DNA of 64,000 nt from assembly GCF_900182725.1 (NCBI RefSeq), contig NZ_FXTO01000003.1, positions 124,001-188,000 on the forward strand, written 5' to 3'. Positions within the stretch are counted from its first letter, which is position 1. The number at the start of each line of letters is the position of its first letter. This document shows positions 10,471-62,203 of the stretch, piece by piece. The notes under the pieces are model-generated. The model saw only the letters and a list, made by a program, of their open reading frames with translations, ran no database searches and was not told where the DNA came from. The stretch is from Thalassovita litoralis. GTDB lineage: Bacteria; Pseudomonadota; Alphaproteobacteria; Rhodobacterales; Rhodobacteraceae. Position numbers and translations under genes: made by a program.

Positions 10471-10557
10471 TTTCAGGCTCCGTCAGGTCAAAGGAAGGGG
10501 TCGGATCAGGATACGACCCGCGCCCGAAACCGAAAGACAAGCCTGCGAAAGCGTTGA

Positions 10558-11523
10558 TTAGGGGCAGGCTAAGCCGTCCCTTGCATCGGCACTGGCGTCC
10601 ACCCGGCCCAGACCCGGCAAATCCCCCCGCGCCACTGCCGCCCGGCTGTGCTGAAGAAAGGCGCGGACCGCGTTGGATTTATCCGCATCGCGCGGCATCA
10701 AAAGCCCCATCTTCATCGCCCGCACTGGTCCCGTCATCGGAATGAATTGCAACGGTTTGCCATCCGGTGACAGGCTGTTCAGCGGGCGCACATTGGCGAT
10801 GGAATAGCCATAGCCATTCGCCACCAGACTGCGCATCACCGCCATATCGCGCGTGCGTTCGGCAATCCGCGGCTTGGTTCCGGTTCCGGCAAAGAACGAC
10901 AGGAAATAATCCGCGCTCAGCGGCAGGTCCAGCAGCACCATCGGATGATCCCGCAAATCGGCCACCGAAACCCCGGCCCGACCGGCCAGCGGGTGTGCCT
11001 CATTCACCAACACGAAAGGCGGTAATTCCACCAGCGGGGCGAATTGCAGATCGGCGGGAACCTCCAGATCATAGGTCAGCGCTACGTCGATTTCCGACCG
11101 GCGCAGCCCGCTGATGATATCCGCTTGGTTCAATTCATATTGGCGCAGCCGTACATCGGGGTAATCCGCCTCGAAACTGCGGCGCAGCGCAGGCAGCACC
11201 ATTTGCGCGAATGTCACCAGACAGCCCACCGACATCGGACCCCGGACAGACCCGGAAATATCCCCGGCAATATCCATCAAAAGCCCCGCCTCGCGCAGGA
11301 CCACACGGGCCTGTTCCAGCATTTGCCGCCCGCCCTGCGTCAGCGATAGCCCCTGTGCGTGTTGGCGCACGAAAAGCGGCAGGCCGAATTCCTGTTCCAA
11401 CTGGGTGATGGCCGCAGAAATCGACGGCGAGGACACATTGATCCGTTCCGATGCCTTGGCGATACTGCCGGTATCACCAACAGCCACGAAATATTCAAGC
11501 TGCCGGAGCGTATATCTCAGCAT
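10558..11523 (-). CDS. LysR family transcriptional regulator
   Basis: A 321-residue regulator. The start at 11523 (MLRYTLRQLEYFVAV) places the winged helix-turn-helix at residues 1-60 as usual; the longer open frame upstream has no homologous look. The substrate-binding domain spans about 90-300. It lies on the same strand between the DUF1028 gene and the TMADH-like gene (87-base gap), so it probably controls the whole 5.9-14.2 kb catabolic block. Possible binding sites are the palindromes at 12835-12870. Confidence 0.88.
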   Translation of the reverse strand: MLRYTLRQLEYFVAVGDTGSIAKASERINVSSPSISAAITQLEQEFGLPLFVRQHAQGLSLTQGGRQMLEQARVVLREAGLLMDIAGDISGSVRGPMSVGCLVTFAQMVLPALRRSFEADYPDVRLRQYELNQADIISGLRRSEIDVALTYDLEVPADLQFAPLVELPPFVLVNEAHPLAGRAGVSVADLRDHPMVLLDLPLSADYFLSFFAGTGTKPRIAERTRDMAVMRSLVANGYGYSIANVRPLNSLSPDGKPLQFIPMTGPVRAMKMGLLMPRDADKSNAVRAFLQHSRAAVARGDLPGLGRVDASADARDGLACP

Positions 11524-11652
11524 CTGGGGGCCTTGTCCTGTCGCGTTGACCCCAGCATTGACCGCGATCCCCGCAGGTTTCAAGGGCGGGCACCGATTTG
11601 TGGGCCGCCCCGAAACCCGTTGCGTATTTTCACCGCGCGGCACAATCCCGGC

Positions 11653-12327
11653 TTATTCGTCCCCCGGCACGCCATAAGACGGCGCTTCGCGCGGATCCAG
11701 CGCCCGCTGAATATAGGCGTCCAACTGCGGTTTATAGATGTCCCACGCGGTCGCTATCGCCTCGATCGGGCAATCTTCGGTCCAGTCACAGCGCAGATCG
11801 GCCACAGGCCAGGCCACCCGGTCCACCAGCATCATACCCGCCGAATGCACCGGACCGGCCTCGCCCCCGGCGGCCAGACCGGCCCGCATGGCCGCGATCA
11901 GCCGGTCGCCCAGATGCCCCCGCGCTGTCACGAACCCATCCACGATGGCCTGCGGCACGCCGTCATTCGCCAGCAAATTCCCGCCCGAGGCCACGTTATC
12001 CCCCTGCGCCTGCGTCCAGATGCCCAGACTGTTCGGCCCGGAATGAATGGCGGTTCCGCCCTGCGCGTCCACGGCCAACACCTGCCGATATTCGATGAAA
12101 CTGCCGCGCTTTTGCACCTCGGCCACGGCTTCGGCGGCGCTTAGCCCGTCTTGCATCAAATCCAGCGCCAGCGGACCCAGCCGGGGATCGGTCACGTTTT
12201 GCGAGGCCACAGCCCCCACCCCGGCCCGCGCATAGGCGCAGCGCGCCGCAACTGCCGGTGACGACGATGAAATCGCCACCCCAAACATGCCGGTTTCCGC
12301 GCAGCGCGCCACAAGCGAAAATGTCAT
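11653..12327 (-). CDS. DUF1028 family Ntn-type hydrolase
   Basis: A 224-residue protein matching the DUF1028 family from MTFSLVARCAETGMFGVAISS through GVGAVASQNVTDPRLGP to the GGNLLAN region. The fold is predicted to be of the Ntn-hydrolase type, and some members are linked to nucleobase or amino-acid breakdown, but no activity can be assigned. It begins 4 bases after the RidA-type gene, which indicates translational linkage. Confidence 0.85.
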   Translation of the reverse strand: MTFSLVARCAETGMFGVAISSSSPAVAARCAYARAGVGAVASQNVTDPRLGPLALDLMQDGLSAAEAVAEVQKRGSFIEYRQVLAVDAQGGTAIHSGPNSLGIWTQAQGDNVASGGNLLANDGVPQAIVDGFVTARGHLGDRLIAAMRAGLAAGGEAGPVHSAGMMLVDRVAWPVADLRCDWTEDCPIEAIATAWDIYKPQLDAYIQRALDPREAPSYGVPGDE

Positions 12328-46227: not shown

Positions 46228-47266
46228 CTTTCGTCCCCTTTGCTGTCTTGGTCAGTGCCTGCGATGTGATTTGATCCCCTGAGGTGCCGCGTTTGCGGCG
46301 CGTGGCGCGCACGTCCAGAATCCAATCCAGAATGCCCCGCCGCAACACCAGCACCACGAACAGGATGGCAATGCCTTTGGCCAGATCCGTGTGGGTGGTG
46401 TAGATCAGCGTGATGTCATTGATGGCCCGCATCACGACGACGCCCAGAAGCGGTCCATAGAAACTGTGCAATCCGCCCAGCATGATCATGAAGATCGCTT
46501 CGCCGGATACGGCCCAGCCCGCCCATTCCGGGTAGGCCGCCGAGGTGAAGATCGCCAGAATAACCCCGCCCAGCCCAGCAATCATGCCTGCGATGGTAAA
46601 GGCTGCGACTTTGACCCGGTAGGTATTGATCCCCAGGAACGCCGTGCGGGTTTCATTGTCCCGCACCATACGCAGCGTAGCCCCAAAAGAGCTGAGCGTT
46701 ACCAACCGGATCACCAGCAGCCCGGCCATGAATAAAAAGGCCGAGAAGACATAGCGGTCTTTGACCTCGACCAGATTGAGGCCTAGGAATTCGGGGCGTG
46801 GGATACCACCAGTCAGGCCCTGATCGCCGCCAGTATATTGCACCAGCCCCTGAATGGCCGACACTAACAACATCTGAAAGGCCAGCGTCAGGAAGGCAAA
46901 GTAGATTTCGGACAGACGGGCGCAGATCAGCCCGACGAAAAGCGCGAACCCCCCGGTGCCCAGCAGGGCGACAAGTGTGGCGATCGGAACCGCCCAGCCA
47001 CCAAGGGCCGCCACGACGCCATCCGCCTGTAGCAACATCCCGAAGATATACCCGCCCGAGGCAAAATAGGCAGCATGGCCGAAAGACACCAGACCCGTGT
47101 AACCCACCAGAAGGTGCAGCGACATAACCAGCAGACCGGATGCGAACAGCCCGGTCATCGTGTCCAGCAACCATGTACCGGGATAGATCACGCCGATCAG
47201 GATCAACACCGCCAGACCGATCACGGCCATCAGGCTGGTGCGTGCGAAAATACGCGTGGAATTCAT
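46214..47266 (-). CDS. livM: Branched-chain amino-acid-type ABC transporter, permease LivM
   Basis: A 350-residue inner-membrane permease with about nine hydrophobic segments. GYTGLVSFGHAAYFASGGYI and AGLGGVILAI are LivM-type conserved regions. The C-terminal tail is basic. Forms the channel with LivH; overlaps livH by 4 bases. Confidence 0.9.
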   Translation of the reverse strand: MNSTRIFARTSLMAVIGLAVLILIGVIYPGTWLLDTMTGLFASGLLVMSLHLLVGYTGLVSFGHAAYFASGGYIFGMLLQADGVVAALGGWAVPIATLVALLGTGGFALFVGLICARLSEIYFAFLTLAFQMLLVSAIQGLVQYTGGDQGLTGGIPRPEFLGLNLVEVKDRYVFSAFLFMAGLLVIRLVTLSSFGATLRMVRDNETRTAFLGINTYRVKVAAFTIAGMIAGLGGVILAIFTSAAYPEWAGWAVSGEAIFMIMLGGLHSFYGPLLGVVVMRAINDITLIYTTHTDLAKGIAILFVVLVLRRGILDWILDVRATRRKRGTSGDQITSQALTKTAKGTKDAAS

Positions 47267-48177
47267 CGACCTGCCCTTTCACCCAAAAGGCCCTGCGGCC
47301 GGAAAACCAGAATGACCACCATCATCAGGAACATCGCGCCATCCACGAAAAGCGGGAACCCAAGGCTGCCAAAGGCGCGGGTGAAGCCCAGCAGCAGCGC
47401 CGCCAGAAGAGCGCCGGGGATGGACCCCATACCGCCGATCACCGTGACGATGAAACTTTCGATCAGGATGGACAGACCCATGCCGGGGGTCAGCGACCGG
47501 ACCGGGGCAGCCAACGCGCCTGCCATCCCCGCCAACCCGCACCCCAAACCGAACAGGGTGGCGAAATAGATCGGCACACGGATACCCAGTACCGAAACCA
47601 TCGTCGGGTTTGCGGCGGCGGCGCGGACGATTTTGCCAAAGCGGCTATAGCGGATCAGGATCAGGCTCAGCACGGCCACCATCAGCGCCGTTCCGGCAAG
47701 GAACAGATAAAAGGGCGGAACCACGCCTCCGGCAATGCGCCACGGCCGGACGCGGAATTCATCTGGCACACCCATTGCCAGATATTCCGACCCCCAGATG
47801 ATTTTCACCGCATCGTCGCAAATCAGTACGAAGGCATAGCAGACCAACAACTGCATCAGCAGGTTTTCCTTGTACACCCGGCTGATGGCTGAGCGTTCGA
47901 ACAAAACACCCACTATGGCGGCGGCAATGGTGCCGACCAGCACAGCAACATAGTAGTTCCCGGTCACGCCATAGGTGGAATAGGCAACATAGGCACCGAT
48001 CATGTAAAACGCGCCATGGGCGAAATTCACCACATGCAGCACGCCAAAAATCAGCGTCACCCCCGAGGCGACCAGAAACAGCAACATGCCGATAATCACC
48101 CCGGTGGCGGATTGCGTCACCAGACAGGCCGAGTTGCTGAAGCAGTTTGACAACGCACCGAGATCGAGCATTTGCAA
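47263..48177 (-). CDS. livH: Branched-chain amino-acid-type ABC transporter, permease LivH
   Basis: A 304-residue inner-membrane permease. FGVLHVVNFAHGAFYMIGAY and GLAGMAGALAAP are LivH signatures. Follows livK by 64 bases. Confidence 0.9.
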   Translation of the reverse strand: MQMLDLGALSNCFSNSACLVTQSATGVIIGMLLFLVASGVTLIFGVLHVVNFAHGAFYMIGAYVAYSTYGVTGNYYVAVLVGTIAAAIVGVLFERSAISRVYKENLLMQLLVCYAFVLICDDAVKIIWGSEYLAMGVPDEFRVRPWRIAGGVVPPFYLFLAGTALMVAVLSLILIRYSRFGKIVRAAAANPTMVSVLGIRVPIYFATLFGLGCGLAGMAGALAAPVRSLTPGMGLSILIESFIVTVIGGMGSIPGALLAALLLGFTRAFGSLGFPLFVDGAMFLMMVVILVFRPQGLLGERAGR

Positions 48178-48241
48178 TCGCTTTCTTAACTGTCAGGAAG
48201 ATCTAGACGGACGGGATCCCCGCCCGCCTAGGGAACCACGG

Positions 48242-49501
48242 TCAGAGGAAGCTGTTACGCTTTTTCCAGTCCGTTTCGTAATCCACGATCACGTCCCACG
48301 CCGTGGGTTCGAAACCAGTCAGATACGGCGGTTGTGGTACGGTTTGGCCATAACCAATCGCGTAGTCGACCAATGTGTTATCGGCCTCGCGCATTGTGAC
48401 AGTGCCGTTGACGCCAAAGGGGCTGTCGATGGTACGCCCACGGGTGGCGTCGGCCAGTTTCTGATAATCGGTATCGCCGCCGGTGTCTTTCAGCGCGTTC
48501 AGAACGAATTGCGCCCCGGTGTAGGTTTGCCATGCCCAGTTGGTAGGCAACTGGCCGGATTTACGGAATTCGGTATTCCAGTTCTCATTGGCTTCGACAT
48601 CGGGAATGTCCTTGTGATAGCGATTGCCCGAATGAATGCCGCCCGGCAGGTTCTTGATTGCCTCCAGAACCGGCACGTCGCCCATGTTCACGGCCACTGT
48701 CTGGAACTGGTCGAACAGACCATACAGGCTGGCCTGATCGAAGAACGCCACCAGATCGCCGCCCCACAGGCAGGAATACAGCGCATCAGGTGCGACGTTC
48801 AAAAGGTTGGTGATGTTTTCCGTGTAATCCGGCTGGAAGATTTTCGGCCATGTTTCCCCGACCAGCTTTACCTCGGGGGCAAAGACGGCCAGGAATTCCA
48901 TGAATTCGCTGGTCGTGGATCGACCATAGGCATAGTCCGGCGAACAGGTGGCCCAGCGGGTCGCCCCGGCCTTGGCCAGATTCGCCGCGTAAAGCCCCCC
49001 GGAAATCGCATCATGAATCCCCTGACGGGCCGACCGGAACACCCAAGGGGCACGGTTGGCCGGGTCTGCCGTCAACGACGAGGTTTCCGAGATCGTGTGC
49101 ATACAATAGGTTTTGGTATCGCGGACCACTTCATGCACGGCAAAGGTTCCGCCCGAGGCTTCGCCGTTCAGGATGAACGCACAACCATCACTGCTGAGCA
49201 GGTCGCGCGTGACCTTCGCAGCCTCGTCCGGTTTACCCTTGCTGTCGCGGATCACCAGTTCCACCATGCGCCCGTCAATACCGCCAGCGGCGTTGAACGC
49301 GTCCACGGCCATTTTCGCGCCGACAGATGCCGTTTCGCCCAGGATCGCCACCCGCCCGGACAGGATTGTAGGCATACCGATCTTGATCGGGCTGCCGGCT
49401 GCGCGCAGCACCGTGGGGCTGGCCAGCGTTGTCACACCTGCTGCCCCTGCCGCGACCATAAAGTCGCGTCTGGACAGCCCATTTTGCTTCGTCGTTTTCA
49501 T
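48242..49501 (-). CDS. livK: Branched-chain amino-acid-type ABC transporter, binding protein
   Basis: A 419-residue periplasmic binding protein of the LivJ/LivK/AmiC type. The start at 49501 gives MKTTKQNGLSRRDFMVAAGA, a twin-arginine (Tat) signal, so it is exported folded. Family features are IKIGMPTILSGRVAILGE and GIDGRMVELVIRDSKGKP. The ligand may be an amide, aromatic acid or amino acid; the neighbouring SDR and MmgE/PrpD genes argue against plain leucine uptake. Confidence 0.88.
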   Translation of the reverse strand: MKTTKQNGLSRRDFMVAAGAAGVTTLASPTVLRAAGSPIKIGMPTILSGRVAILGETASVGAKMAVDAFNAAGGIDGRMVELVIRDSKGKPDEAAKVTRDLLSSDGCAFILNGEASGGTFAVHEVVRDTKTYCMHTISETSSLTADPANRAPWVFRSARQGIHDAISGGLYAANLAKAGATRWATCSPDYAYGRSTTSEFMEFLAVFAPEVKLVGETWPKIFQPDYTENITNLLNVAPDALYSCLWGGDLVAFFDQASLYGLFDQFQTVAVNMGDVPVLEAIKNLPGGIHSGNRYHKDIPDVEANENWNTEFRKSGQLPTNWAWQTYTGAQFVLNALKDTGGDTDYQKLADATRGRTIDSPFGVNGTVTMREADNTLVDYAIGYGQTVPQPPYLTGFEPTAWDVIVDYETDWKKRNSFL

Positions 49502-49590
49502 CTCACTCCTCCCTTGAGACAATGCCAGATCAGGCAAATTCCGAGATGCACCGCGCCCGTGAACAGGGGGCAGTGACGCATATGTTCACA

Positions 49591-50406: not shown

Positions 50407-50457
50407 TGAATCATGAGTCAATTATGAATTGTGATTCAGTCATCATTTTTATTGACG
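50407..50457. promoter_or_regulatory. Divergent promoter A with TGAAT-N4-ATTCA operator
   Basis: TGAATTGTGATTCA (50425-50438) is an inverted repeat of TGAAT and ATTCA with a 4-base spacer. A degenerate copy, TGAATCATGAGTCA, lies at 50407-50420. After 13 bases comes TTGACG (50452-50457), a -35 for the MmgE/PrpD gene, inside CATTTTTATTGAC (50444-50456). The same box, spacing and 13-base word recur at 63178-63210. Confidence 0.65.
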
Positions 50458-50507
50458 GTGCCGTTCTGTACCCGCAACCTGACATCAGTCATCAAGGGAG
50501 AGAGACA

Positions 50508-51863
50508 ATGACGGTCGCCGAAGAACTTGGGCGTTTCGTGGCCCGGCTGAATCGCGAAACCATCCCCGATCTGGTCTGGCAAAAAGCGCAAACCTGCCTG
50601 TTGAATGGCTACGGGATCGCTATGGCGGGCCTTGCCACCCCCTATGAACCAGTGGCGCGGGCTGCCGCCAATGCCATGTATCCGGGGGGCGGCGCGGCCA
50701 CCTTTCTGGGCAATGGCGAGCGTGGCAATATCACGGGTGCCGTGATGGCCAATGCGGCGCTGTTCCACGGGCGCGGACAGGAAGATACCTGCGGCGCGGC
50801 ACATCTGGGGGCGGTCATTATCCCGCTGCTGATGGCGCTGATCGAAAGCGGCCACGGCGACATCGACGACCTGATTCCGGCGCTGGTGGCCGGGTACGAA
50901 GTGGGCGGCCTGTTCGAGGAAGTGCTGGCTGGCGATACCACGCCCAAGGGGCTGCGGGCGACCACGCTGTATGGTGCCGGGGCGGCGGCCGCGGCCACCG
51001 CACGGCTGTTCCATATGGATGCGGAACGGATATGTGCAGCGCTTGGCAATGCTGTGTCCTTTTCCGGCGGTTTGCTGCAAACCTTTGCCGAAGGGACCGA
51101 CGAATGGCGGTATCAGGTGGGGGTCACGGCGCAGGCGGGCTGGGCGGCGACCGAACTGGCCCGTGCCGGTTCCGTCAGCATCACGCAGGCTTATGAAGGA
51201 GCCAAAGGGTTGGCGCAGGCCTTTGCCGGGCGGGCGCTGGATGCGGATATGGTGATTGGCAAGATCGGGCAAGACTGGCAAACGCTGCGTGTGGCGTTCA
51301 AACCCTTCCCTGTTTGCGCGTTCAACCAAACCCCGGTGACGGCAGCACTGGATTTGCGCGACCGGATTGCCGGACGCCGCATTGACCGCGCAACGGTCTG
51401 GATGAATCCCTATGAATGTGGCTATGCCGGGATGGACAGCAAAGGCCCGTTTTCGACGATTGGCGGTACGCTGATGAGCATTCCGTTCTGTATTACCCAA
51501 ACCCTGCTGCGCGGTGCGCCGTCGATGGCCATGATGACCGAATATGACGACGCCGAAATCAACGCGCTTGTGGCCCGGATTGATCTGGATGCCGATGCGG
51601 CAGTCCCAACGCTGTGCTGCCGGATCCTGGTCCATCTGGACGATGGCGAAGTGATTGATGAAATCTGCAACATGTCCGCTGCGGATTACGCCTATCGGTT
51701 CGAGGAAATGCGGGATCGGCTGATCCGTACCAATGCGCAGGAGAATGTATCTGCTGGCTGTGTGGATGCACTGGCCCGTTTCGCAGCAGACCCGACCAAA
51801 GCCGGGCTTGGGCCATTGTACGATGCCTTTGCCACGGCACGGGGCGAAATTCGGCGGCAATAG
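50508..51863 (+). CDS. MmgE/PrpD family protein
   Basis: A 451-residue protein of the 2-methylcitrate dehydratase/cis-aconitate decarboxylase/iminodisuccinate epimerase superfamily. The conserved N-terminal helical domain contains HGRGQEDTCGAAHLGAVIIP (substrate and catalytic region), and a middle section VAFKPFPVCAFNQTPV carries the KPFP motif. The start at 50508 follows AGGGAG. Its acid substrate is unknown; it is divergent from SDR A and the liv-type importer. Confidence 0.85.
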   Translation: MTVAEELGRFVARLNRETIPDLVWQKAQTCLLNGYGIAMAGLATPYEPVARAAANAMYPGGGAATFLGNGERGNITGAVMANAALFHGRGQEDTCGAAHLGAVIIPLLMALIESGHGDIDDLIPALVAGYEVGGLFEEVLAGDTTPKGLRATTLYGAGAAAAATARLFHMDAERICAALGNAVSFSGGLLQTFAEGTDEWRYQVGVTAQAGWAATELARAGSVSITQAYEGAKGLAQAFAGRALDADMVIGKIGQDWQTLRVAFKPFPVCAFNQTPVTAALDLRDRIAGRRIDRATVWMNPYECGYAGMDSKGPFSTIGGTLMSIPFCITQTLLRGAPSMAMMTEYDDAEINALVARIDLDADAAVPTLCCRILVHLDDGEVIDEICNMSAADYAYRFEEMRDRLIRTNAQENVSAGCVDALARFAADPTKAGLGPLYDAFATARGEIRRQ

Positions 51864-51981: not shown

Positions 51982-53475
51982 CTAATGCACCGCAGCGTAC
52001 ATCAGTTTTTCTTCGGTCGCGTCCAAAGGCGAAAATTCTTCGACGATCTTGCCCTGCCGCGCCACAAGCAAACGATCTGATAGCTGCATCACCTCGGGCA
52101 GGTAAGAGGAGATGACAACCACCGCCCGCCCTTCGTCTGCCAGTTGGTTGATGATGTTGTGAATTTCGGCAATCGCCCCCACATCGACGCCACGGGTGGG
52201 TTCATCAAAGATAATCAGTTCGGGTTCCTGCACCAGCGATTTAGCGATCACCGCCTTTTGCTGGTTGCCACCGGACAGTTCGATGACATTGGCATTTTGC
52301 GTTACAGATTTGACCTGAAGCGCCTTCACCCATTTTTCTCCCAGCTCGTCCATCTTGGATTTTCGCAACCAAAACCGCGCCAGTTGAGCTTTGCCCATCA
52401 GGCCCGCGAACACGTTCTGCTTGATCGACATGGTTTCAAAGAACCCTTCGATTTTCCGGTCTTCGGTGACATAGGCAATGCCATCCCGAACCCCCTGCGC
52501 GGGAACCAGATAGCGCACGGGTTTCCCCTTCAGGATCACCTCTCCGCCGTTGCGGTAGTTGCGCTTGATCACACCGGACACCACCTTGAAGGTTTCGGTG
52601 CGGCCCGATCCGACCAATCCGAATATCCCCGTCACCTGCCCCTTGAAAACGGAAAGAGAGTTGTTTTTGACCACGCCGCCAACGCGCAGATTTTCAATGC
52701 TCAGGATGCGTTCCCCGGCAGGTCTGATTTTGGTTTTCCGGTTTTCATAAAGTTCCTGCGTCAGTTCCCGCCCAACCATCGACTGCACGATCCGGTCACG
52801 GTTGAAACTGCTGGTCTTGTCCGTCACCACATGCCTGCCGTCCCGCAGAATGGTGATCCGGTCAGAGATTTCCAGCGCCTCTTCTAAAGCGTGGGAAATG
52901 AAGATCACGGCCACGCTGTGACTTTTGAGGGTTTCGACCAGATTGAAGAAATGGCGCTTTTCTTCGGGGGTCAGGGTGGCTGTGGGTTCGTCGAACACGA
53001 TTACCCGCGCCTCCAGAAGCATCGCGCGGGCGATTTCGACCATCTGTTTTTGGGCCGCGCCAAGCGAAGCGACAATCTGGGTGGGGTCCACATCGAAGCT
53101 GAGCGACTGCATAAACTGCTGCGCGGTGATGTTGGTGCCACGGATGCGGTTGAAGAATTTTTCATTCCCAAGAAACAGGTTCTGCGCGACCGTCATGGAC
53201 GGCACCAGACTGGTTTCCTGAAACACCATGGCGATGCCCAGCTCTACCGCTTCGGCCGGGGTTCGGATGTTGATTTCATCCCCGTTCAGCAAAATCTGAC
53301 CCGAAGTAGGATGCACCACCCCAGCCATCATTTTTGTCAGGGTCGATTTCCCGGCGCCGTTTTCCCCCAGAATGGCGTGAACCTCGCCGGGGTGAAGATC
53401 GAAATCCACCTCGGAAACGGCGGCGGCCTTCCCGTAAAGTTTGGTGATTTTTCGCATTTCCAGAACGGGTTTCAT
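51982..53475 (-). CDS. Sugar-type ABC transporter, dual ATPase (RbsA/MglA family)
   Basis: A 497-residue protein of two fused ATPase domains. The first has Walker A GENGAGKST and Walker B VIVFDEPTATLTPEE; the second has the usual degenerate P-loop GLVGSGRTE but keeps LSGGNQQKAVIAKSL and LIIFDEPTRGVD. Last gene of the seven-gene operon, overlapping the propeller gene by 4 bases. It powers the two permeases encoded upstream. Confidence 0.93.
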   Translation of the reverse strand: MKPVLEMRKITKLYGKAAAVSEVDFDLHPGEVHAILGENGAGKSTLTKMMAGVVHPTSGQILLNGDEINIRTPAEAVELGIAMVFQETSLVPSMTVAQNLFLGNEKFFNRIRGTNITAQQFMQSLSFDVDPTQIVASLGAAQKQMVEIARAMLLEARVIVFDEPTATLTPEEKRHFFNLVETLKSHSVAVIFISHALEEALEISDRITILRDGRHVVTDKTSSFNRDRIVQSMVGRELTQELYENRKTKIRPAGERILSIENLRVGGVVKNNSLSVFKGQVTGIFGLVGSGRTETFKVVSGVIKRNYRNGGEVILKGKPVRYLVPAQGVRDGIAYVTEDRKIEGFFETMSIKQNVFAGLMGKAQLARFWLRKSKMDELGEKWVKALQVKSVTQNANVIELSGGNQQKAVIAKSLVQEPELIIFDEPTRGVDVGAIAEIHNIINQLADEGRAVVVISSYLPEVMQLSDRLLVARQGKIVEEFSPLDATEEKLMYAAVH

Positions 53476-54581
53476 TGTGCCGCACCTCCCAGCAGGGTCG
53501 TTTCAACGGTGTGAACGGACAGTTTCAGGATGCGACCGCTGCCTTTGGACAGGGCGTAAAGCGTATCACCATCCTGTACCGTAGCGCAGATGCCGTGATT
53601 TCGGCCGCCTACCCGGCTGTGCATCGAATAAAGCGGCACCAGATTGGCATCGAACCGGACCACAAGCCCATAGGACCGGGGCGGAGCCCAGGGTTTCAGA
53701 ACCCCCATCTGTTTCACCCCACCGCCTTGTAACGGTTCCAGAAAGTCCTGCCCGGACCCGAAACTGGGCGAAATCCAGTAGGCGGGTTCGATGGTGGCCA
53801 TCATTTCTTGCCGGAAATCATGTTCTTTCAGGACGAATTCAACAAGCTGGGTGCGACTGCAAAACAGGCTGAGCCAGAATCCACCCCCCTGTGCCAGTGA
53901 CATACGACTGGGATACCCAGCCAGACGATCCACCGCAGGTTTCTTCTTGCCCGTCACAGATGTCAGGCAGTGTTTCCAGCTTTCCGATACAAGAATGCCG
54001 GTTTCCGTGCTGTCATAGGCTCCGAATGCATAGGCCATGCCAGAGGCCAGCACCGTGGCATCACCGCTGGCCGGATCAATCCGGATCAGGCGCGCACCGC
54101 TGTTTTTGCCCATCAGATCCCACGCCCAGTCATCCACCCCGTGCCGGTCCGAACCATCGCATACCAGCAGCCCGCCATCGGGCTGGCGGTAGATCGCAGT
54201 CACCGCGACCAATTTCCGGCCCTTTACCGTGTCGACCACCCGTTCATCGGCGCTGCCGGGCGCCAGCACGATCCGGTCCCCCAGACCGACCACCGGGCGA
54301 CCGTCTGCCATAAAGGCCAAGGCGGAAATCACACGGTCAAACGTCATGGTTTCCGTCAAAGCCCCGTCTTTCGACAGTGCGTACAATGTGTTGGCAGAGG
54401 CGGTGAAAATCTGGCCGTCGTCGCGGCGGGCCAAATCGTTCAGCCCCGGCTGTTCGACCAGAATTTCCGCCTCTTCCAGCAGGTTGTTCGGTTTCAATGC
54501 GCCGTCAAAGACCGGCACGGACAGGCTTTTGCTGCGGGTGTTTCCGAACGACCCGATCCAGTTCATCAGATTATCCAACAT
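53472..54581 (-). CDS. Stand-alone beta-propeller protein, strictosidine-synthase/SMP-30-like, degenerate
   Basis: A 369-residue protein without signal peptide. It follows the same blade pattern as the C-terminal half of the fusion protein encoded upstream: FGAYDSTETGILVSESWKHC, then LAGYPSRMSLAQGGGFWLSL. Where the fusion has the family motif GYPDNI, this protein has GYPSRM, so the Asn used as metal ligand in SMP-30-type lactonases is lost. It may be a ligand-binding or regulatory partner. The start at 54581 overlaps the fusion gene by 11 bases; the upstream extension is inside that gene. Confidence 0.75.
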   Translation of the reverse strand: MLDNLMNWIGSFGNTRSKSLSVPVFDGALKPNNLLEEAEILVEQPGLNDLARRDDGQIFTASANTLYALSKDGALTETMTFDRVISALAFMADGRPVVGLGDRIVLAPGSADERVVDTVKGRKLVAVTAIYRQPDGGLLVCDGSDRHGVDDWAWDLMGKNSGARLIRIDPASGDATVLASGMAYAFGAYDSTETGILVSESWKHCLTSVTGKKKPAVDRLAGYPSRMSLAQGGGFWLSLFCSRTQLVEFVLKEHDFRQEMMATIEPAYWISPSFGSGQDFLEPLQGGGVKQMGVLKPWAPPRSYGLVVRFDANLVPLYSMHSRVGGRNHGICATVQDGDTLYALSKGSGRILKLSVHTVETTLLGGAAQ

Positions 54582-56697
54582 GGTATTTCCCACTCGAAAC
54601 ATAGGTTTCGTCCGCGTCATCAAGCTTGAGCCGCCCAATCCGGTTGTTGGTGATGCCACCGATATACAGATAGCCCTTGTGTTCGCGCATGGAGGTGATC
54701 ATCGGGTGGTTGATGCCCTGACGATCCCAAAGCACGTCCAGAATTTCCCCGGCTTCGTTGAATTTGACGATGCAGCCAATGTTGATATTCGGGGCCAGCC
54801 ATTCATCGCCGGGCAGTTGTTTGGACATCCTGCGGCGGAAACCGGGTTTGCGCATGGACAGGTCGAACACCTGACTGCGCATCCCCATGATGGCCAACCA
54901 GTAATTCCCGTCCGACGCGCGGTTGATATTGTCGGGGTAGCCGGGCAGGTTCGGGATCACCATTTCGACCTTGCCCTTCTTCGGACCTTCGAACCAATAG
55001 CGTTTGATGGTGCAATTCCAGCTTTCGGCAAACAGGATGGATTGCTTATCCGAGGCGACAACGATCCCGTTGGGGAAGATCAGGTTACGCAGAACGGTCG
55101 TGGTTTTGTTCTGCTTGGGATCATACATGATGATCCGACCGTTCCCCCGGCCTTCCAGCGCGTCGGTTGGCCATTCGTGCATTTCATAGCGTACCGTCGC
55201 TTCGGAAAACAGGATGCGGCCATCCGGCAGAATATCCAGATCGTCGGCCAGACGCAGGCGGCTGTCATCAATAATGGACAAGAAGTGCCGGTTGGTTTCG
55301 TCCGTGACAAGTTCAACTTTGCGATCGCGTGTGACGCGGTACAGGCCCATGCCACCAACACAGACATACAGGTTATACTCCGCGTCAAATGTCATCCCCA
55401 GCGGTTGCCCGCCAATTCGGGCGTAGACCTCGTGTCGTTTGTAATCGGGTGCGAAAAAGCGGATGATGTCGCCGTGGCGGCTGCCGCAATACAGGTTGTC
55501 GTCTTCGTCCAGAACGACATCTTCGGGGGCTTCGACCTGCCCCAGCCCGATGATTTCCACATCATGCAGTCTTTCGTTCGGGGCGTAATCCGAATCCGGG
55601 CTGGTGGCGTCTTTGGACAGTCCGGGCAGTTCCAGCAAGGCAGGGCTAACATAGAGTTCCTGTACAGCCTTATGGCGGTTCTTGAACCAGCGGATGTCCA
55701 GCGTGGCGGCCAGAAGCAGAATGGTGGCCAGAATGATCCGGGACGTACCTGCGGGCGTCGCCATGCGCAACAGACCATTGGTAATCAGCAGGATGATCAG
55801 CGTGCCAAGGATCGCTTTCATGACCGATCCCTTGCCGCCGCCAAGCCGGATACCCCCCAGAATGGCCGCTGTCAGAACGGTGATTTCCAGCCCCTTGCCG
55901 GTATCGGCGCCGGGGCTGGCCAACCGCGCGGCATAAAAGATTGCCGAGGCCGCAGTCAGCACCCCCGAAGCGACATAGGACAGGGCGACGATCCGGTTCA
56001 CCGGCAACCCGGTGTTATAGGCCGAACGGCGATTGCCCCCTACGGCCAGCAACCACCAGCCATAGCGCAGACGGGTCAGGAAAATATGCGTGAAAATGGC
56101 AAGAATACCAAATGCCCAGACCACTGTCGGGATCGACAGGATGGCCCCGTATCCCATCCGGTCCCAGGCCGGTGAGTCGGGAAAATTCGATGAAATGGCC
56201 ACCGCGACCTTTACGTTCAGCAGATCATGGATGGCTTTGAACACGATCAACGTGACCATCGTGGTCAAAAAGGCCCGCATTCGGAAATATCCAATCAGGA
56301 TACCGTTGATCGCCCCAAGCGCCGCCCCCAGAAGCAAGGTCACGGACACAGCCCCGATCAGCGGCATTTGCCAGACATGCATACAATACAGCACCAGCAA
56401 ATTGCACAGCGCAAAAATCGAAGCGACACTAAGGTCAATGCCGCCCACAATCAGCACCAGCGAAATCCCCAGCACGACAAAGCCCAGTTCCGCAGCCTGC
56501 CGGAAGTTATCAGACAGGTTGTTGGCGGAAATGAAGTTGTCGATCTGGGCGCTGAAGAAAACAATGGTGAAAATCAGCACGATCAATGGAACTGCCGTTT
56601 CCATCCACGGCTTTTGCAGGATCTCTCCGAAGATGTGATCCGGCCAGTACTTATAGCGTAATTTCTTCAAGGTCTGTGACATCGTCGGGTCCGTCAA
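54571..56697 (-). CDS. ABC permease fused to a strictosidine-synthase/SMP-30-like beta-propeller
   Basis: A 708-residue two-domain protein in one open frame. Residues about 1-340 are an RbsC-type permease with some eight to ten membrane helices, including GGIDLSVASIFALCNLLVLY and GGIRLGGGKGSVMKAILGT. Residues about 365-708 are a soluble propeller with APEDVVLDEDDNLY, LADDLDILPDGRILFSEATV, FPNGIVVASDKQSILFAESW and LPGYPDNINRASDGNYWLAI, the Str_synth pattern. Normal RbsC proteins stop near residue 330. If the C-terminus of the permease is cytoplasmic, as in RbsC, the propeller would face incoming substrate and might open a lactone. Overlaps the next propeller gene by 11 bases. Confidence 0.85.
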   Translation of the reverse strand: MTDPTMSQTLKKLRYKYWPDHIFGEILQKPWMETAVPLIVLIFTIVFFSAQIDNFISANNLSDNFRQAAELGFVVLGISLVLIVGGIDLSVASIFALCNLLVLYCMHVWQMPLIGAVSVTLLLGAALGAINGILIGYFRMRAFLTTMVTLIVFKAIHDLLNVKVAVAISSNFPDSPAWDRMGYGAILSIPTVVWAFGILAIFTHIFLTRLRYGWWLLAVGGNRRSAYNTGLPVNRIVALSYVASGVLTAASAIFYAARLASPGADTGKGLEITVLTAAILGGIRLGGGKGSVMKAILGTLIILLITNGLLRMATPAGTSRIILATILLLAATLDIRWFKNRHKAVQELYVSPALLELPGLSKDATSPDSDYAPNERLHDVEIIGLGQVEAPEDVVLDEDDNLYCGSRHGDIIRFFAPDYKRHEVYARIGGQPLGMTFDAEYNLYVCVGGMGLYRVTRDRKVELVTDETNRHFLSIIDDSRLRLADDLDILPDGRILFSEATVRYEMHEWPTDALEGRGNGRIIMYDPKQNKTTTVLRNLIFPNGIVVASDKQSILFAESWNCTIKRYWFEGPKKGKVEMVIPNLPGYPDNINRASDGNYWLAIMGMRSQVFDLSMRKPGFRRRMSKQLPGDEWLAPNINIGCIVKFNEAGEILDVLWDRQGINHPMITSMREHKGYLYIGGITNNRIGRLKLDDADETYVSSGKYHVG

Positions 56698-56771: not shown

Positions 56772-57785
56772 TTACTTGATGCTTTCGAGCGTCCAGCAGG
56801 ATTGCTGGTCCACGTTATCGGCGGTGAATTCGATCAGTGGCGTGTACAGGATCGTCTTGGTCGAACCGACCTCGTTCTTGTCCTGCAATGCTGCAAGGAT
56901 CAGATCGTTCAGGTCGCGCGCCTGTCCCGGAACATCGTAGCTGACATAGTGCTGCCACAGGTTTTCACGGATACCCTTGCACGACAATTCGCCGCCACCG
57001 CCCGAGGTCGAAACAAACACATCGTTGGTTTTACCCGCTTCGGCCAGTGCCGCCGCTGTTCCAATGTCCGTGTTGTCCCAGACCCCCAGAATTCCGCAAA
57101 GATCCGGATGCTGTTGCAGAACCACTTGCGTGATCGACTTTGCCTTGGCGGATTCATAAGCGCCGGTCGACTGAACGCTGACCACCTGAATCTTATCATT
57201 TCCATTCAGGACATTTTCATAGCCATGCAGCATGTAGGCGGAAAACGGGCTGGTCGGCGGACCGGCCAGGATCAGAACCTTACCGGATTTACCTTCACCA
57301 GTGCAGTGGTTCACGACCGCATTGGCCTGAGTTTCACCGATTTCAACCACATCCGCCCCAACAAAGCCGGTGGTCAGGATGTTGGTTTTCATGTTGAGCT
57401 GAAGTACGTGAATCCCGGCATCTTCGGCTCGTTTCAGAAGTCGGGCATAGGATTGCACATCAGGGTTCTGCACCACCAGCACATCGGGCTTTTCCGAAAT
57501 CAGCGATGTGATGGTTTGGGCACCGGCGGCAGTGTTGAAGTTCGAATTGCGAACCTCGTATTTATACCCCAGCTTTTCGGCCTGCCGGGCCATCATTTTC
57601 GACCAGCCCTCGGTCAGATCAAGCCCCATGAAAACCGGCACGAAAACGACGCTGCGGTCTTTCAGACTGGCATATAGCGCATCGCGGGCCGGGTCGTTGA
57701 TGCTTTGCTGTGCCACGGCGGAACCGCCGATTGCGAATGACAGCAGAGTCACGGCCGTCATCGCGGCTTTGGTAAATAGTTTCAT
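56772..57785 (-). CDS. Sugar-type ABC transporter, periplasmic binding protein (RbsB family)
   Basis: A 337-residue binding protein. The signal peptide MKLFTKAAMTAVTLLSFAIG is followed by SAVAQQ; the mature part has the RbsB/LacI-like fold (VVFVPVFMGLDLTEGWSKMM, then EKPDVLVVQNPDVQSYARLL). A sugar, polyol or sugar-like lactone is a reasonable ligand type, but the identity is open. Lies between the two permease genes. Confidence 0.9.
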   Translation of the reverse strand: MKLFTKAAMTAVTLLSFAIGGSAVAQQSINDPARDALYASLKDRSVVFVPVFMGLDLTEGWSKMMARQAEKLGYKYEVRNSNFNTAAGAQTITSLISEKPDVLVVQNPDVQSYARLLKRAEDAGIHVLQLNMKTNILTTGFVGADVVEIGETQANAVVNHCTGEGKSGKVLILAGPPTSPFSAYMLHGYENVLNGNDKIQVVSVQSTGAYESAKAKSITQVVLQQHPDLCGILGVWDNTDIGTAAALAEAGKTNDVFVSTSGGGGELSCKGIRENLWQHYVSYDVPGQARDLNDLILAALQDKNEVGSTKTILYTPLIEFTADNVDQQSCWTLESIK

Positions 57786-57836: not shown

Positions 57837-58820
57837 TCAGATATCCCCTTGCTTCGCGGTCTCCTCGTTGCGGGGGTTCAGGATGCTGTCGGTCATCAGC
57901 GCGGCCAGCAACACCATCCCCCGGACCAGATTCTGCCCTTCAAAGGAAACGTTCATGATCGTCATGCCATTGATGATCGTGCCGATCAGCAAAGTGCCGA
58001 TAATCACGTTCCAGACCCCGCCGCGCCCGCCGGACAGGCCAATACCGCCCAGCACGACGACTAGGATCACGTCGTAAATCCATGTCAGGTTGAAAATCCG
58101 CGTATCCATGTTTGCCGAGGACGCGGCCAGAACCAGCCCGGCGAACAGGGCAATTACCGAGGCCATCACATATTGCAGAATAATGATCGGGCGCACCCGC
58201 ACCCCAGTGATCCGTGCCGCCAGCAGGTTGTCCCCGAGGGCATAGATGAAGAACCCCATTCGGGTCTTTTTCAGAAAGATATGGACGACAAGCGCCGCCG
58301 CCAGAAAGGCAAGGATCGAATAGGGAATGCCCAGAATGACCCCGCGTCCGATCCATGAAATCGAATCCAATGCGGGGGGCCATGCCACGATGTCATATTC
58401 GAACAGCCCGCTTTGGCCGATCCCAGCGATCCCGATGCCCACTGCCAGCGTGGCGAACAAAGCGGGGATTTCCGCATAGGCCACCAGAACGCCATTCAGC
58501 ACGCCGGTCGCGATTGCAAAGGCCAGCCCGGCCAGTATTGCCAGAACCGGCGGATATCCGGCCCCCGCAAGGGTCATCACCCAAGCCGCGGGAACCGCCA
58601 GCGTTGCGATCATCGACAGGTCGATCCCGCGCCCGATCACGACGATGGCCATGCCCAATCCCAGAATGCCCAGAACGGAAACCGATCTGACCAGCGTGAG
58701 GATATTCCCCGCCGATATAAACCCCGGCAGAAATACCGCGAATGACAGGAAAATCAGAATAAACAGTATCAGGACAATGATCTGCTGATCCAGTTTTCGG
58801 CCACGTAAGAGGTTGAGCAT
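57837..58820 (-). CDS. Sugar-type ABC transporter, permease (RbsC family)
   Basis: A 327-residue inner-membrane permease. LGMAIVVIGRGIDLSMIATL and LGGIGLSGGRGGVWNVIIGT are the RbsC-type conserved segments. It has normal length and no added domain, so it probably pairs with the fused permease as a heterodimer. Confidence 0.9.
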   Translation of the reverse strand: MLNLLRGRKLDQQIIVLILFILIFLSFAVFLPGFISAGNILTLVRSVSVLGILGLGMAIVVIGRGIDLSMIATLAVPAAWVMTLAGAGYPPVLAILAGLAFAIATGVLNGVLVAYAEIPALFATLAVGIGIAGIGQSGLFEYDIVAWPPALDSISWIGRGVILGIPYSILAFLAAALVVHIFLKKTRMGFFIYALGDNLLAARITGVRVRPIIILQYVMASVIALFAGLVLAASSANMDTRIFNLTWIYDVILVVVLGGIGLSGGRGGVWNVIIGTLLIGTIINGMTIMNVSFEGQNLVRGMVLLAALMTDSILNPRNEETAKQGDI

Positions 58821-58892: not shown

Positions 58893-59642
58893 TCAGACCC
58901 CGCGCCCGCCGTCCACTTCAAGGGCAACACCCGTGATGAATTCGGCGTCATCCGAACTCAGGTACAGCGCGGCCCCGGCCACATCAGACGGCCGGGCCAT
59001 GCGGCCCAGTGGGATTGTCGCCAGGAACGCCGTGCGATTTTCGGGGGTATTGGCCATCCCCATGAAATCTTCGGTCAGGCCGGTATCCCCCAGCACCGGG
59101 CAAATCGCGTTTACCCGGATCTTATCGGGGGCCAGTTCGACCGCGATGCCCTTGGACAGGTTGGTCGCCGCCGCCTTGGAACCGTTATACCAGACCAGTC
59201 CGGGGCGCGGACGCAGCGCCCCAATCGAGGCCACGTTCAGAATGACCCCACCGCCCTGCCTGCGCATCACGGGCACTACGGCCTTGGTGGCCAGATAAAT
59301 CGCCTTAACGTTGACATCGTAAATACGGTCAAAGGTTTTTTCGTCGACTTCCAGCATCGAACCGTTGCGGCTGGTGTAGCCTGCGTTGTTGATCAGGATG
59401 TCCAGACGGCCAAATTTGGTTTCGGCTAGGTCAATCATTGCCTGAACATCGGCCTGCACGGTCACATCTGTCTGGATGGCAACGGCGGCATCGCCGATTT
59501 CGTCCGCGACACGTTTGGCCCCTGCGCCATTGATGTCAGCGACCACGACCTTTGCGCCCTCCTGCGCAAATCGTTTGGCGATCCCTTCACCGAAGCCGGA
59601 CCCTGCACCCGTAATCACTGCAACTTTCCCCGGAATACGCAT
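58893..59642 (-). CDS. SDR family oxidoreductase C (glucose/ribitol dehydrogenase type)
   Basis: A 249-residue short-chain dehydrogenase. TGAGSGFGEG is the NAD(P) motif, NNAGYTS the structural motif, and YNGSKAA the catalytic Tyr-Lys. The C-terminus ITGVALEVDGGRGV is typical. Likely oxidises the imported sugar-like alcohol ahead of the propeller lactonase. Fifteen bases after the aldehyde dehydrogenase gene. Confidence 0.9.
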   Translation of the reverse strand: MRIPGKVAVITGAGSGFGEGIAKRFAQEGAKVVVADINGAGAKRVADEIGDAAVAIQTDVTVQADVQAMIDLAETKFGRLDILINNAGYTSRNGSMLEVDEKTFDRIYDVNVKAIYLATKAVVPVMRRQGGGVILNVASIGALRPRPGLVWYNGSKAAATNLSKGIAVELAPDKIRVNAICPVLGDTGLTEDFMGMANTPENRTAFLATIPLGRMARPSDVAGAALYLSSDDAEFITGVALEVDGGRGV

Positions 59643-59657: not shown

Positions 59658-61097
59658 TTAGTCGTGTTTGAGGACAATCGTTTTGGTCACAGTGAATTCG
59701 TGCATGGCCTGAAAGCCCTTTTCACGCCCGTGACCGCTGTGTTTGACACCGCCAAAGGGCAATTCCACCCCGCCGCCAGCGCCGTAATTGTTGATAAAAA
59801 CCTGACCGCAGCGCAGCTTCTTGGCGACACGCATCTGCCGCGCCCCGCTATTGGTCCAGATCCCGGCAATCAGGCCGAATTCCGTATCGTTAGCGATGCG
59901 GATCGCGTCTTCTTCGTCGTCGAAGGGGATCGCAGCCAGAACCGGGCCGAACACTTCTTTACGGGCCAGATCGCTGGTTTCGGGGACCGGGCCGAACAAG
60001 GCGGGGGCGACATAATACCCCGTTCCCGGTGCGTCAGCATCCAGCGTGGCCTGCGCCAGACAAGGAACATTGGTTGCCTTGGCTTGGGTCAGGAAATGTT
60101 TCACGCGATCCTGCTGTTTGGCGCTGATCAGCGGGCCACAATGCAAGTCTTTTTCATGCGATCCGGCACGCAATCCGTTGATCCGTTCGGCCAGCGCCGC
60201 TGTCACCGTCTCGAAAATGTTGCGCTGGATCAGAACCCGGCTGCCTGCCGAACAGGTTTGTCCGCCGTTTTGAATGATAGCCGCAACGACCACCGGCAGA
60301 GCCTCGTCCAGATCGGCGTCATCGAACAGGATTTGCGGGGATTTCCCGCCCAGTTCCAGCACACAGGCCCGATGATGCTGGGCCGAAGCGACCTGCACCA
60401 AGGTTCCCACCTCTGGCGAGCCGGTAAAGGAAATGAAATCCACATCGGGATGCGCTGTCAAGGCGGCCCCGGCGGTTTCGCCATATCCCGTGACCAGATT
60501 CAATGCACCGGGGGGCAGCCCGGCCTCGTGTGCCAGTTCCGTGAGACGGACGCAGCTTAAGCAAGCTTCTTCGGCGGGTTTCAGAACTGCCGCGTTTCCA
60601 GTAGCCAATGCAGGCCCCAAGGTGCGCCCGAACATCTGAGCCGGATAATTCCACGGAATGATATGACCAGTCACACCACGGGGTTCGCGAATAACCGAAA
60701 CGAAATATTCGTTCAGATAGGGGATCGTTTCCCCATGCAGCTTATCTGCCGCGCCGCCGTAGAATTCAAAATACCGGGCGCAGGCGGCAATATCGGCCCG
60801 CGCCTGTGACATCGGCTTGCCGGTATCGCGTGCTTCGATCTGGGTCAGCTCGTCCGCGTGTTTCAGGATCAACGCGCTGAGCCGGGACAGAACCCTGCCG
60901 CGCTCGGACGGGATAGTTGCCCCCCAAGCTCCCGCCAGACTGGCTCGTGCAGCCCGGACCGCCAGATCAATATCGGCGGCTTGTCCATCCGCAATACAGG
61001 AAAACACCTGACCGTCGCTGGGCGCGACCACATCAATGGTTCCACCCTTTTCGGCGGCACGCCAAATGCCGTCGATACATATCTTTCCCGCAGTCAT
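59658..61097 (-). CDS. NAD(P)-dependent aldehyde dehydrogenase
   Basis: A 479-residue ALDH-superfamily enzyme. The catalytic Glu is in VLELGGKSPQ and the catalytic Cys in GGQTCSAGSR; IPWNYPAQMFGR and FTGSPEVGT are the cofactor segments. First gene of the operon running to 51982. It would oxidise an aldehyde formed from the imported compound to the acid. Divergent from the LysR gene. Confidence 0.93.
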   Translation of the reverse strand: MTAGKICIDGIWRAAEKGGTIDVVAPSDGQVFSCIADGQAADIDLAVRAARASLAGAWGATIPSERGRVLSRLSALILKHADELTQIEARDTGKPMSQARADIAACARYFEFYGGAADKLHGETIPYLNEYFVSVIREPRGVTGHIIPWNYPAQMFGRTLGPALATGNAAVLKPAEEACLSCVRLTELAHEAGLPPGALNLVTGYGETAGAALTAHPDVDFISFTGSPEVGTLVQVASAQHHRACVLELGGKSPQILFDDADLDEALPVVVAAIIQNGGQTCSAGSRVLIQRNIFETVTAALAERINGLRAGSHEKDLHCGPLISAKQQDRVKHFLTQAKATNVPCLAQATLDADAPGTGYYVAPALFGPVPETSDLARKEVFGPVLAAIPFDDEEDAIRIANDTEFGLIAGIWTNSGARQMRVAKKLRCGQVFINNYGAGGGVELPFGGVKHSGHGREKGFQAMHEFTVTKTIVLKHD

Positions 61098-61261: not shown

Positions 61262-62203
61262 ATGAACCTGAATCTTACCCATTTGATCAACTTTATTCAG
61301 GTCGTCGAATGGGGGAACGTTTCGAAGGCCGCGACCTATCTGAATATCGCGCAACCGGCGCTGAGCCGCCAAATTCAGTCGCTTGAAGCGACTCTGAATA
61401 CCAAGCTGTTACGCCGTCAAAACTGGGGGGTGGAACCGACGGAAGATGGCAGGATTCTTCTGGAACATGCCCGGCGTATCCAGAAGGAATGTCTTTCGGT
61501 ACATGAAAGCGTGCGATCGAACAGGGACAGCCCGGTCGGGTCGGTTTATCTGGGCGTACCTGCGGCCTATGCAATCACATTGGTGCCGCCGCTGCTGCAA
61601 AGAATGCAGGTGCTGTATCCCAACATCAAAATTCACATCGTCGAAGCCTTCAGCGGGACGATCTATGAATGGTTGGTCAGCGGGCGGCTTGATCTGGCGG
61701 TTCTGTATCATTCCAAAGAACACACAGTCAAAGAATCGACCCCGTTTTTCGTGGAAGAACTGATCGGGTTGACCGCGCCCGGTATGTTCCCGGACATGAC
61801 CGAACTGACCCTTGCGGATCTTGCCGATCAAGAGATTATCGCCCCGTGGCGTCCGCACCTATTGCGGTTGGTCCTGGATGAAAAATTCATCGAACTTGGG
61901 AAACTTTTCACGCCTAAGATCGAATTGGATTCAATGCCATGTATGATTGAAATGGCGCGGCGGGGTGACGGTATCGTGATCTTACCCCCATCCTGCGTGT
62001 TCCGGGAATTGTCCGAAGGGCAGCTCCGGGGCATTCCCCTGATGCCGAATGTCAAATTGTCGACGGCATTGGGAAAAACGCCCGAACGTCAACCTACGCG
62101 GGCAATGAATATTCTGACCAATGTGTTACGGGATCTGGTTGTTGAACTGGCCCCGCAAAAGGGGTGGAACGTTGTCGGGTCAGAAGACAACACTCCTACA
62201 TAG
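61262..62203 (+). CDS. LysR family transcriptional regulator
   Basis: A 313-residue regulator with the helix-turn-helix at about residues 5-62 (GNVSKAATYLNIAQPALSRQ) and an effector domain like the Nac/CbL-type subgroup (GVPAAYAITLVPPLLQRMQV). The Shine-Dalgarno sequence GAGGAAG precedes the start. The divergent position suggests control of the aldehyde dehydrogenase to RbsA operon by a pathway intermediate. Confidence 0.9.
   Translation: MNLNLTHLINFIQVVEWGNVSKAATYLNIAQPALSRQIQSLEATLNTKLLRRQNWGVEPTEDGRILLEHARRIQKECLSVHESVRSNRDSPVGSVYLGVPAAYAITLVPPLLQRMQVLYPNIKIHIVEAFSGTIYEWLVSGRLDLAVLYHSKEHTVKESTPFFVEELIGLTAPGMFPDMTELTLADLADQEIIAPWRPHLLRLVLDEKFIELGKLFTPKIELDSMPCMIEMARRGDGIVILPPSCVFRELSEGQLRGIPLMPNVKLSTALGKTPERQPTRAMNILTNVLRDLVVELAPQKGWNVVGSEDNTPT

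Follow-up and report, generated by a model that had tools for sequence, protein, structure and literature searches.

An ABC importer permease fused in frame to a strictosidine-synthase/SMP-30-like propeller within a recurring five-gene cassette

Introduction

ATP-binding cassette (ABC) importers of the CUT2 family (RbsABC, AraFGH and XylFGH; TC 3.A.1.2) combine BPD_transp_2 permeases with a twin ATPase and a Peripla_BP_4 binding protein. Lactonases of the SMP-30/gluconolactonase/luciferin-regenerating enzyme (LRE) group (SMP30, Caulobacter xylonolactonase, RPA3624 and Drp35) are propellers with an SGL domain and metal ligands E, N, N and D, and strictosidine synthases and strictosidine-synthase-like (SSL) proteins such as STR1 and TGW6 carry the domains Str_synth and SSL_N. 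Domains of all three groups occur at a locus in a 64,000-nucleotide stretch of Thalassovita litoralis DNA (contig NZ_FXTO01000003.1, positions 124,001 to 188,000; hereafter the window, whose coordinates are used unless another locus is named), where one gene on the minus strand joins a CUT2-type permease to a strictosidine-synthase/SMP-30-like propeller. The component families are known; for the fusion itself, text searches aimed at it, made at the level of search listings and with most subscription papers outside their scope, found no description. To our knowledge, enzyme-like domains fused to ABC importer permeases are rare.

Results

A permease and a propeller share one reading frame

The minus-strand frame is uninterrupted from 54571 to 56697 and encodes 708 residues if TTG 56697, an alternative start, is used. 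The homologues at two other loci (L006 and L008) start at an ATG equivalent to that at 56682, which gives 703 residues, and judging from sequence this ATG is the likely start. Residues are numbered below in the 703-residue form, and residue ranges of Pfam matches in the 708-residue form.

54571..56682, minus strand: fusion gene (CUT2 permease, linker and propeller), 703 residues from ATG 56682
55699..56682, minus strand: permease half, residues 1-328, BPD_transp_2, ten predicted helices
55525..55698, minus strand: linker, residues 329-386, nearly fixed in length and conserved around D329, W332, K334, N335, Y344 and P347
54574..55524, minus strand: propeller half, residues 387-703, assigned by Pfam, a structure model and fold matches

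The original prediction had described a one-frame fusion of an RbsC-type permease with a strictosidine-synthase/SMP-30-like propeller, and both the open frame and the Pfam domains of the two halves agree with it. BPD_transp_2 matches residues 65-330 (E 3.5e-30), SSL_N residues 370-414, Str_synth residues 485-571 (E 3.8e-19; 69.1 bits against a cut-off of 25) and SGL residues 398-605 (E 5.6e-12; 46.2 bits against 26.3), all above the gathering score. The Arylesterase profile is borderline, at 21.4 bits against a cut-off of 21.3 with no single stretch passing alone; the hallmark of paraoxonases (arylesterases) is a His115-His134 dyad. The motifs FPNG and GYPDN, which the same prediction had named, are both present in the propeller. 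Antisense to the fusion, a 648-residue open frame on the plus strand (54229-56175) looks like a shadow frame in coding DNA.

By tblastn, we located 65 fusion places in 64 larger loci. Besides the window, 62 distinct rows carry a single open reading frame (ORF) that runs from residue 60 or earlier to residue 680 or later of the window protein. Together they form an alignment of 63 sequences, from which we omitted L086 as a duplicate of L090, L017 and L116 as truncated at contig ends, and L105 because its parts are in different frames. The stretch from W332 to E387 is 56 residues long in 48 of the 63 sequences and 53-55 in the remaining 15. Within the linker, Y344 and P347 are found in 63/63, and D329, W332, K334 and N335 in 62/63. 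Compared with L006 and L008, the ratio of nonsynonymous to synonymous substitution rates (dN/dS) is 0.06-0.08 in the permease and propeller halves and 0.15-0.17 in the stretch 329-380; these values are rough because dS is near saturation.

A sequencing error at the junction, or homologues that are always two separate proteins, had been named as what would overturn the fusion. The 62 further one-ORF rows and the near-fixed, conserved linker rule out both. One place speaks for the view that the joined frame is an artefact of faulty sequencing or of accidental read-through from one gene into the next: at L105, the permease and propeller parts fall in different frames. Set against the 62 rows, the conserved linker and purifying selection on both halves, this view is hardly credible. 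L105 (about 8440-10529 in genome G009) is the third fusion place of one genome and is either a broken copy or an assembly error. No split cassette was seen where half-only relatives were checked, with about 1.5 kb flanks at 15 loci (L002 and L035-L048) and 20 kb at two (L126 and L127). The in-frame fusion of permease and propeller is real and old.

The fusion belongs to a constant five-gene cassette

The fusion gene is accompanied by four others, which together make up the cassette.

57837..58820, minus strand: permease A, BPD_transp_2 (E 1.9e-27), presumed partner of the permease half of the fusion
56772..57785, minus strand: periplasmic sugar-type binding protein, Peripla_BP_4 (E 1.4e-39)
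53472..54581, minus strand: prop2, a second, degenerate propeller of 369 residues, whose start overlaps the fusion stop by 11 nt
51982..53475, minus strand: twin ABC ATPase of RbsA/XylG type (Pfam ABC_tran with two stretches; NCBIfam), whose start overlaps the prop2 stop by 4 nt

This cassette is complete in 58 of the 58 places with at least 2.3 kb upstream and at least 2.8 kb downstream, with permease A and the binding protein upstream and prop2 and the ATPase downstream on the same strand (tblastn); these places include L105 and also L101, where prop2 lies in two frames. At L101 (genome G003), the prop2 match (11095-12098) comes in two pieces in different frames.

To compare the divergence of the components, we used the 55 loci at which all five ORFs scored above the limits, having excluded L087, L090, L101, L105 and L108 beforehand. 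Distances between fusions correlate with those of the other four components at r 0.83-0.93, a level reached by none of 500 permutations. Median identity is lowest for the binding protein (0.385) and prop2 (0.395), the least conserved components, and rises through permease A (0.484) and the fusion (0.538) to the ATPase (0.628). This pattern suits a cassette that is passed on whole while the molecule it carries varies. One of the excluded loci, L087 (Shinella sp. HZN7 plasmid pShin-09, 12001-13365), has a fusion and permease A fragmented at the record end and is probably a decayed copy. At L076 (genome G987), the ATPase and a related permease (42% identity) apparently share one frame of about 815-850 residues, which is another kind of CUT2 fusion.

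Near-full-query fusions were counted from the match listing in 16 of the 295 genomes of the family sample, the window's own included, with at most three candidates scored per genome; 232 of the 295 have some match at E ≤1e-20 and, among the matches listed, most are to one half. Matches were found in 10/385 genomes of the class sample (one, G658, cut by a contig end) and in 14/398 of the phylum sample (11 fusions and three to one half only). A scan of genome contigs gave 14 loci, including Roseovarius, Mesorhizobium, Paraburkholderia and Variovorax, with L017 cut by the contig start, and 15 of 72,556 plasmid records have a place that covers at least 80% of the query. One-frame fusions thus span Alpha-, Beta- and Gammaproteobacteria, the last represented through a Pantoea plasmid. 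In 10 of the 15 plasmid records, the protein is named by its propeller alone, so that the permease half is hidden, and public annotation can be corrected on this point. The original prediction is borne out for the fusion and its halves; it had noticed neither the second propeller nor the five-gene cassette nor the propeller-only annotation.

The fused propeller keeps a putative metal site

In an AlphaFold2 model of the fusion (14 sequences; mean predicted local distance difference test score (pLDDT) 64.2, predicted template-modelling score (pTM) 0.53), the propeller half is mostly at pLDDT 75-93, with low stretches. Foldseek ranked strictosidine synthases and TGW6 first, followed by luciferin-regenerating enzyme, the RPA3624 lactonase (8djf; TM-score 0.79 by target length, E 3.8e-10), PON1, SMP-30, Drp35, xylonolactonase and DFPase. 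With a profile, the closest solved sequence is rice TGW6 (8kg3, E 4.7e-27), which is reported to be an indole-3-acetic acid (IAA)-glucose hydrolase without the calcium site (PMC10958001).

Four positions, matched by sequence alone, are presumed metal ligands:

55522..55524, minus strand: E387, 63/63
55243..55245, minus strand: D480, D in 48 and N in 15
55069..55071, minus strand: N538 of FPNG, 63/63
54931..54933, minus strand: D584 of GYPDN, 63/63

The residues E387, D388, D481, N538, D584, N585 and H659 are invariant in the 63 sequences. The calcium ligands of the DrSOD lactonase domain, reported as E200, N290, N339 and D381 (PMC12362111), follow the same order E, D/N, N, D.

We also considered strictosidine synthase activity. 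The catalytic Glu309 of STR1 aligns with T663 or its neighbour, and the aligned residue is not Glu; at T663, all 63 sequences have Thr. This activity was rejected for want of the catalytic Glu.

Free relatives of the fused propeller, at 37-40% identity and with an N-terminal hydrophobic segment, occur at L126 and L127. They keep the four ligand positions, the cassette's transporter is not beside them, and alpha/beta hydrolase, thioesterase and alcohol dehydrogenase genes adjoin (by Pfam at L126 only). Given the hydrophobic segment, these relatives may face the other side of the membrane.

The second propeller has lost the presumed metal site

In prop2, no Pfam or NCBIfam match was found at E 0.001, and no signal peptide was seen by eye. 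The protein is predicted to be a propeller (pLDDT 79.6, pTM 0.81) with strictosidine synthases as fold matches, and hhalign matches it to the fused propeller over 310 columns (probability 100, E 9.5e-42). In every one of 62 prop2 rows, that of the window among them, A, G, S or C stands where the fused propeller has D584, and V, I, P, A or L where it has D480. N585 is replaced by R in 58, the position of N538 is mixed with N kept in six, and the position of E387 holds D in 45 rows and E in 12. H329 and K296 of prop2 itself are present in 62/62 rows. These patterns mark prop2 as a diverged paralogue of the fused propeller in which the presumed metal site is lost, and the fold and other motifs kept.

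The propeller is predicted to lie on the cytoplasmic side

We placed ten helices in the permease half by hand from the low-confidence model and hydropathy, and in this arrangement both ends would be cytoplasmic. The sums of per-loop means for K+R are 18.1 in predicted inner loops and 2.1 in outer loops. Ten is also the commonest predicted helix number in CUT2 permeases (8 of 17; PMC3654945). The cytoplasmic propeller that the original prediction had raised as a condition is favoured as a prediction, with helices that were set by hand. The experimental topology of RbsC did not turn up in our literature search. Sequence comparison gave no match to a solved structure for permease A (E up to 1) and none for the permease half, whose best hit (E 0.55) was an antibody chain; NCBIfam models for ribose and arabinose permeases do match, far below their cut-offs.

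Neighbouring genes differ between clades

The genes that flank the cassette in the window are the following.

58893..59642, minus strand: short-chain dehydrogenase/reductase (SDR), recurring beside the closest relatives
59658..61097, minus strand: aldehyde dehydrogenase, recurring beside the closest relatives
61262..62203, plus strand: LysR regulator, divergent from the operon
50436..51863, plus strand: MmgE/PrpD family protein, convergent with the ATPase gene

The same-strand order is thus aldehyde dehydrogenase, SDR, permease A, binding protein, fusion, prop2 and twin ATPase. Beyond the MmgE/PrpD and SDR genes, 47263-49537 encodes another ABC transporter, one of the branched-chain type with a LivH/UrtB-like permease and a Peripla_BP_6 binding protein.

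Neighbours in the window's tree clade were labelled by similarity to annotated plasmid genes. This clade has 13 rows, two of them (L007 and L010) with too little flank. An SDR lies nearby in nine of the remaining 11 and an aldehyde dehydrogenase in seven, with neither in L009 and L014, and several rows also have MmgE/PrpD, CoA-ester lyase, CaiB CoA-transferase or acyl-CoA dehydrogenase genes. These neighbours would fit a hydroxy acid, from a lactone or ester, that is oxidised to a dicarboxylate and then activated and cleaved. Of the genes directly upstream of cassettes, 8 of 38 on the same strand are SDRs, and directly downstream 6 of 33 are of the carboxymuconolactone decarboxylase family and 4 of 33 aminotransferases of class IV. 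The gene immediately upstream of the cassette is a separate SMP-30/gluconolactonase gene at L112 (13404-14381; PF08450, E 4.3e-51) and a flavin monooxygenase-like gene at L091 (4938-6740); enzymes of the latter kind can make lactones or esters.

Degradative 3-hydroxy-3-methylglutaryl-CoA (HMG-CoA) reductase (TIGR00532, above the cut-off in all four) stands beside the cassette at L049, L093, L108 and L121, with HMG-CoA lyase in addition at the last three. At L108, the reductase, the cassette and the lyase follow one another on the same strand; at L049, the reductase abuts permease A; at L121, reductase and permease A are separated by a CaiB gene, with the lyase on the opposite strand; at L093, an opposite-strand ORF intervenes. 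L108 (genome G630) has two tandem cassettes, only one of which lies between reductase and lyase. In the tree, L049 pairs with one L108 copy as its sister inside a group with good support, L093 belongs to another well-supported group of seven with its closest placing weak, and the placing of L121 is weak (86/44). The reductase link therefore arose on at least two branches, perhaps three. Cassettes beside the reductase probably import mevalonate or its lactone.

The reductase was also tried as a general marker of the cassette and rejected, since it occurs in 2 of 16 fusion genomes as compared to 32 of 295 overall. The two genomes are G273, where reductase and fusion are adjacent, and G222, where they are on different contigs; one of the 33 reductase places in the family sample adjoins a cassette.

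Discussion

Our preferred reading is that the cassette encodes an ABC importer with a tethered metal-dependent hydrolase that acts, most likely, on a small lactone of a hydroxy acid, together with a pseudo-enzyme partner; we give this a probability of roughly 0.48, just short of even. Solute brought by the binding protein would be moved, with the twin ATPase, by permease A and the fusion acting as a heterodimer, and the fused cytoplasmic propeller would hydrolyse it as it enters. Opening at the inner mouth would trap the solute and feed the neighbouring dehydrogenases, and prop2 would be a constant, non-catalytic partner of the fused propeller. For an importer joined to a hydrolase, we count the complete cassette in 58/58 places and the joint divergence of its components, the predicted topology, the conserved ligand pattern with the lactonase and SMP-30 fold matches, and the free relatives at L126 and L127 that, without the transporter, keep the ligand positions among hydrolase and dehydrogenase genes. 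The loci with HMG-CoA reductase, some with the lyase, point to a lactone, as the substrate of that pathway forms one, and the homology of prop2 to the fused propeller without its ligands argues for a pseudo-enzyme partner. The fuller picture would be a heterodimeric importer in which a built-in metal-dependent propeller, paired with a dedicated pseudo-enzyme, hydrolyses the cargo at the inner mouth, and which several unrelated catabolic operons have taken up as a transferable unit for substrates that form lactones, for example mevalonolactone; it is rather doubtful in all its parts at once.

Several observations weigh against the hydrolase, its substrate or both. The permease half of the structure model is of low confidence, position 480 is D instead of the usual N in 48/63, and H659 is unmatched in L126 and L127. 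Hydrolysis in the family may not require the metal, because TGW6 is reported to be an ester hydrolase without the calcium site (PMC10958001), and an enzyme is not strictly needed for mevalonolactone, since this lactone, which mevalonate forms, reopens in water unaided (PMC13064465). The separate SMP-30 gene at L112 could mean that the fused propeller does something else. The window's genome has no degradative HMG-CoA reductase (TIGR00532), which leaves mevalonate unsupported as the substrate of the window's own operon. In the family sample, 32/295 genomes have the reductase, 16/295 the fusion and two both, which is about chance and slightly lowered our confidence; among 20 reductase loci retrieved with flanks of about 9 kb, where these were available, the cassette was absent throughout and seven loci had matches to tripartite ATP-independent periplasmic (TRAP) transporters. 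Because neighbouring genes differ between clades, no single substrate fits all loci, and one substrate for the whole family is unsupported.

The main rival holds that the propeller pair is regulatory, with the fused propeller gating the importer in response to a metal or ligand that it binds in the cytoplasm, and prop2 as its partner. C-terminal domains of some ABC importers do gate transport, the constant cassette and near-constant linker length suit an allosteric domain, the adjoining pathways differ while the propellers stay, and one propeller of the pair is degenerate. However, the ligand pattern together with D481, N585 and H659 is invariant in the 63 sequences except for D/N at 480, which is more than a scaffold needs, and free relatives with the four ligand positions exist without the transporter. 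We consider a purely regulatory pair unlikely. The propeller may instead be an enzyme and not a lactonase, such as another strictosidine-synthase-like hydrolase of esters or glucose esters like TGW6, its best solved sequence match, which is reported to hydrolyse IAA-glucose; the sugar-type binding protein would agree with this. This alternative is less probable still, as the fused propeller keeps the ligand pattern of a calcium site that TGW6 is reported to lack (PMC10958001), and the HMG-CoA reductase loci call for no glycoside step.

Taken together, the recurring five-gene arrangement suggests that the cell may process some food molecules during their passage through the membrane. If the propeller is catalytic, the cassette offers a testable case of uptake coupled to metabolic trapping, in an arrangement that is constant and accompanied by a degenerate partner, and mevalonate or mevalonolactone is a substrate lead for a few of its copies.

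Unlike the CUT2 importers that it otherwise resembles, the cassette encodes two distinct permeases, of which one is joined to a propeller, as well as a further, degenerate propeller protein, and its gene order is constant. Unlike SMP-30-type lactonases, the fused propeller is tethered to a permease and has D for N at the second ligand in 48/63, and it is closer in sequence to strictosidine-synthase-like proteins, which supply its best Protein Data Bank sequence and fold matches. The Cu/Zn-superoxide dismutase-lactonase of Deinococcus radiodurans is likewise a naturally occurring fusion in which a propeller lactonase, with the same ligand order, is joined to a protein of another family (PMC12362111). 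Its fusion partner is a superoxide dismutase, whereas here the partner is a transporter, encoded in a constant operon with a degenerate second propeller.

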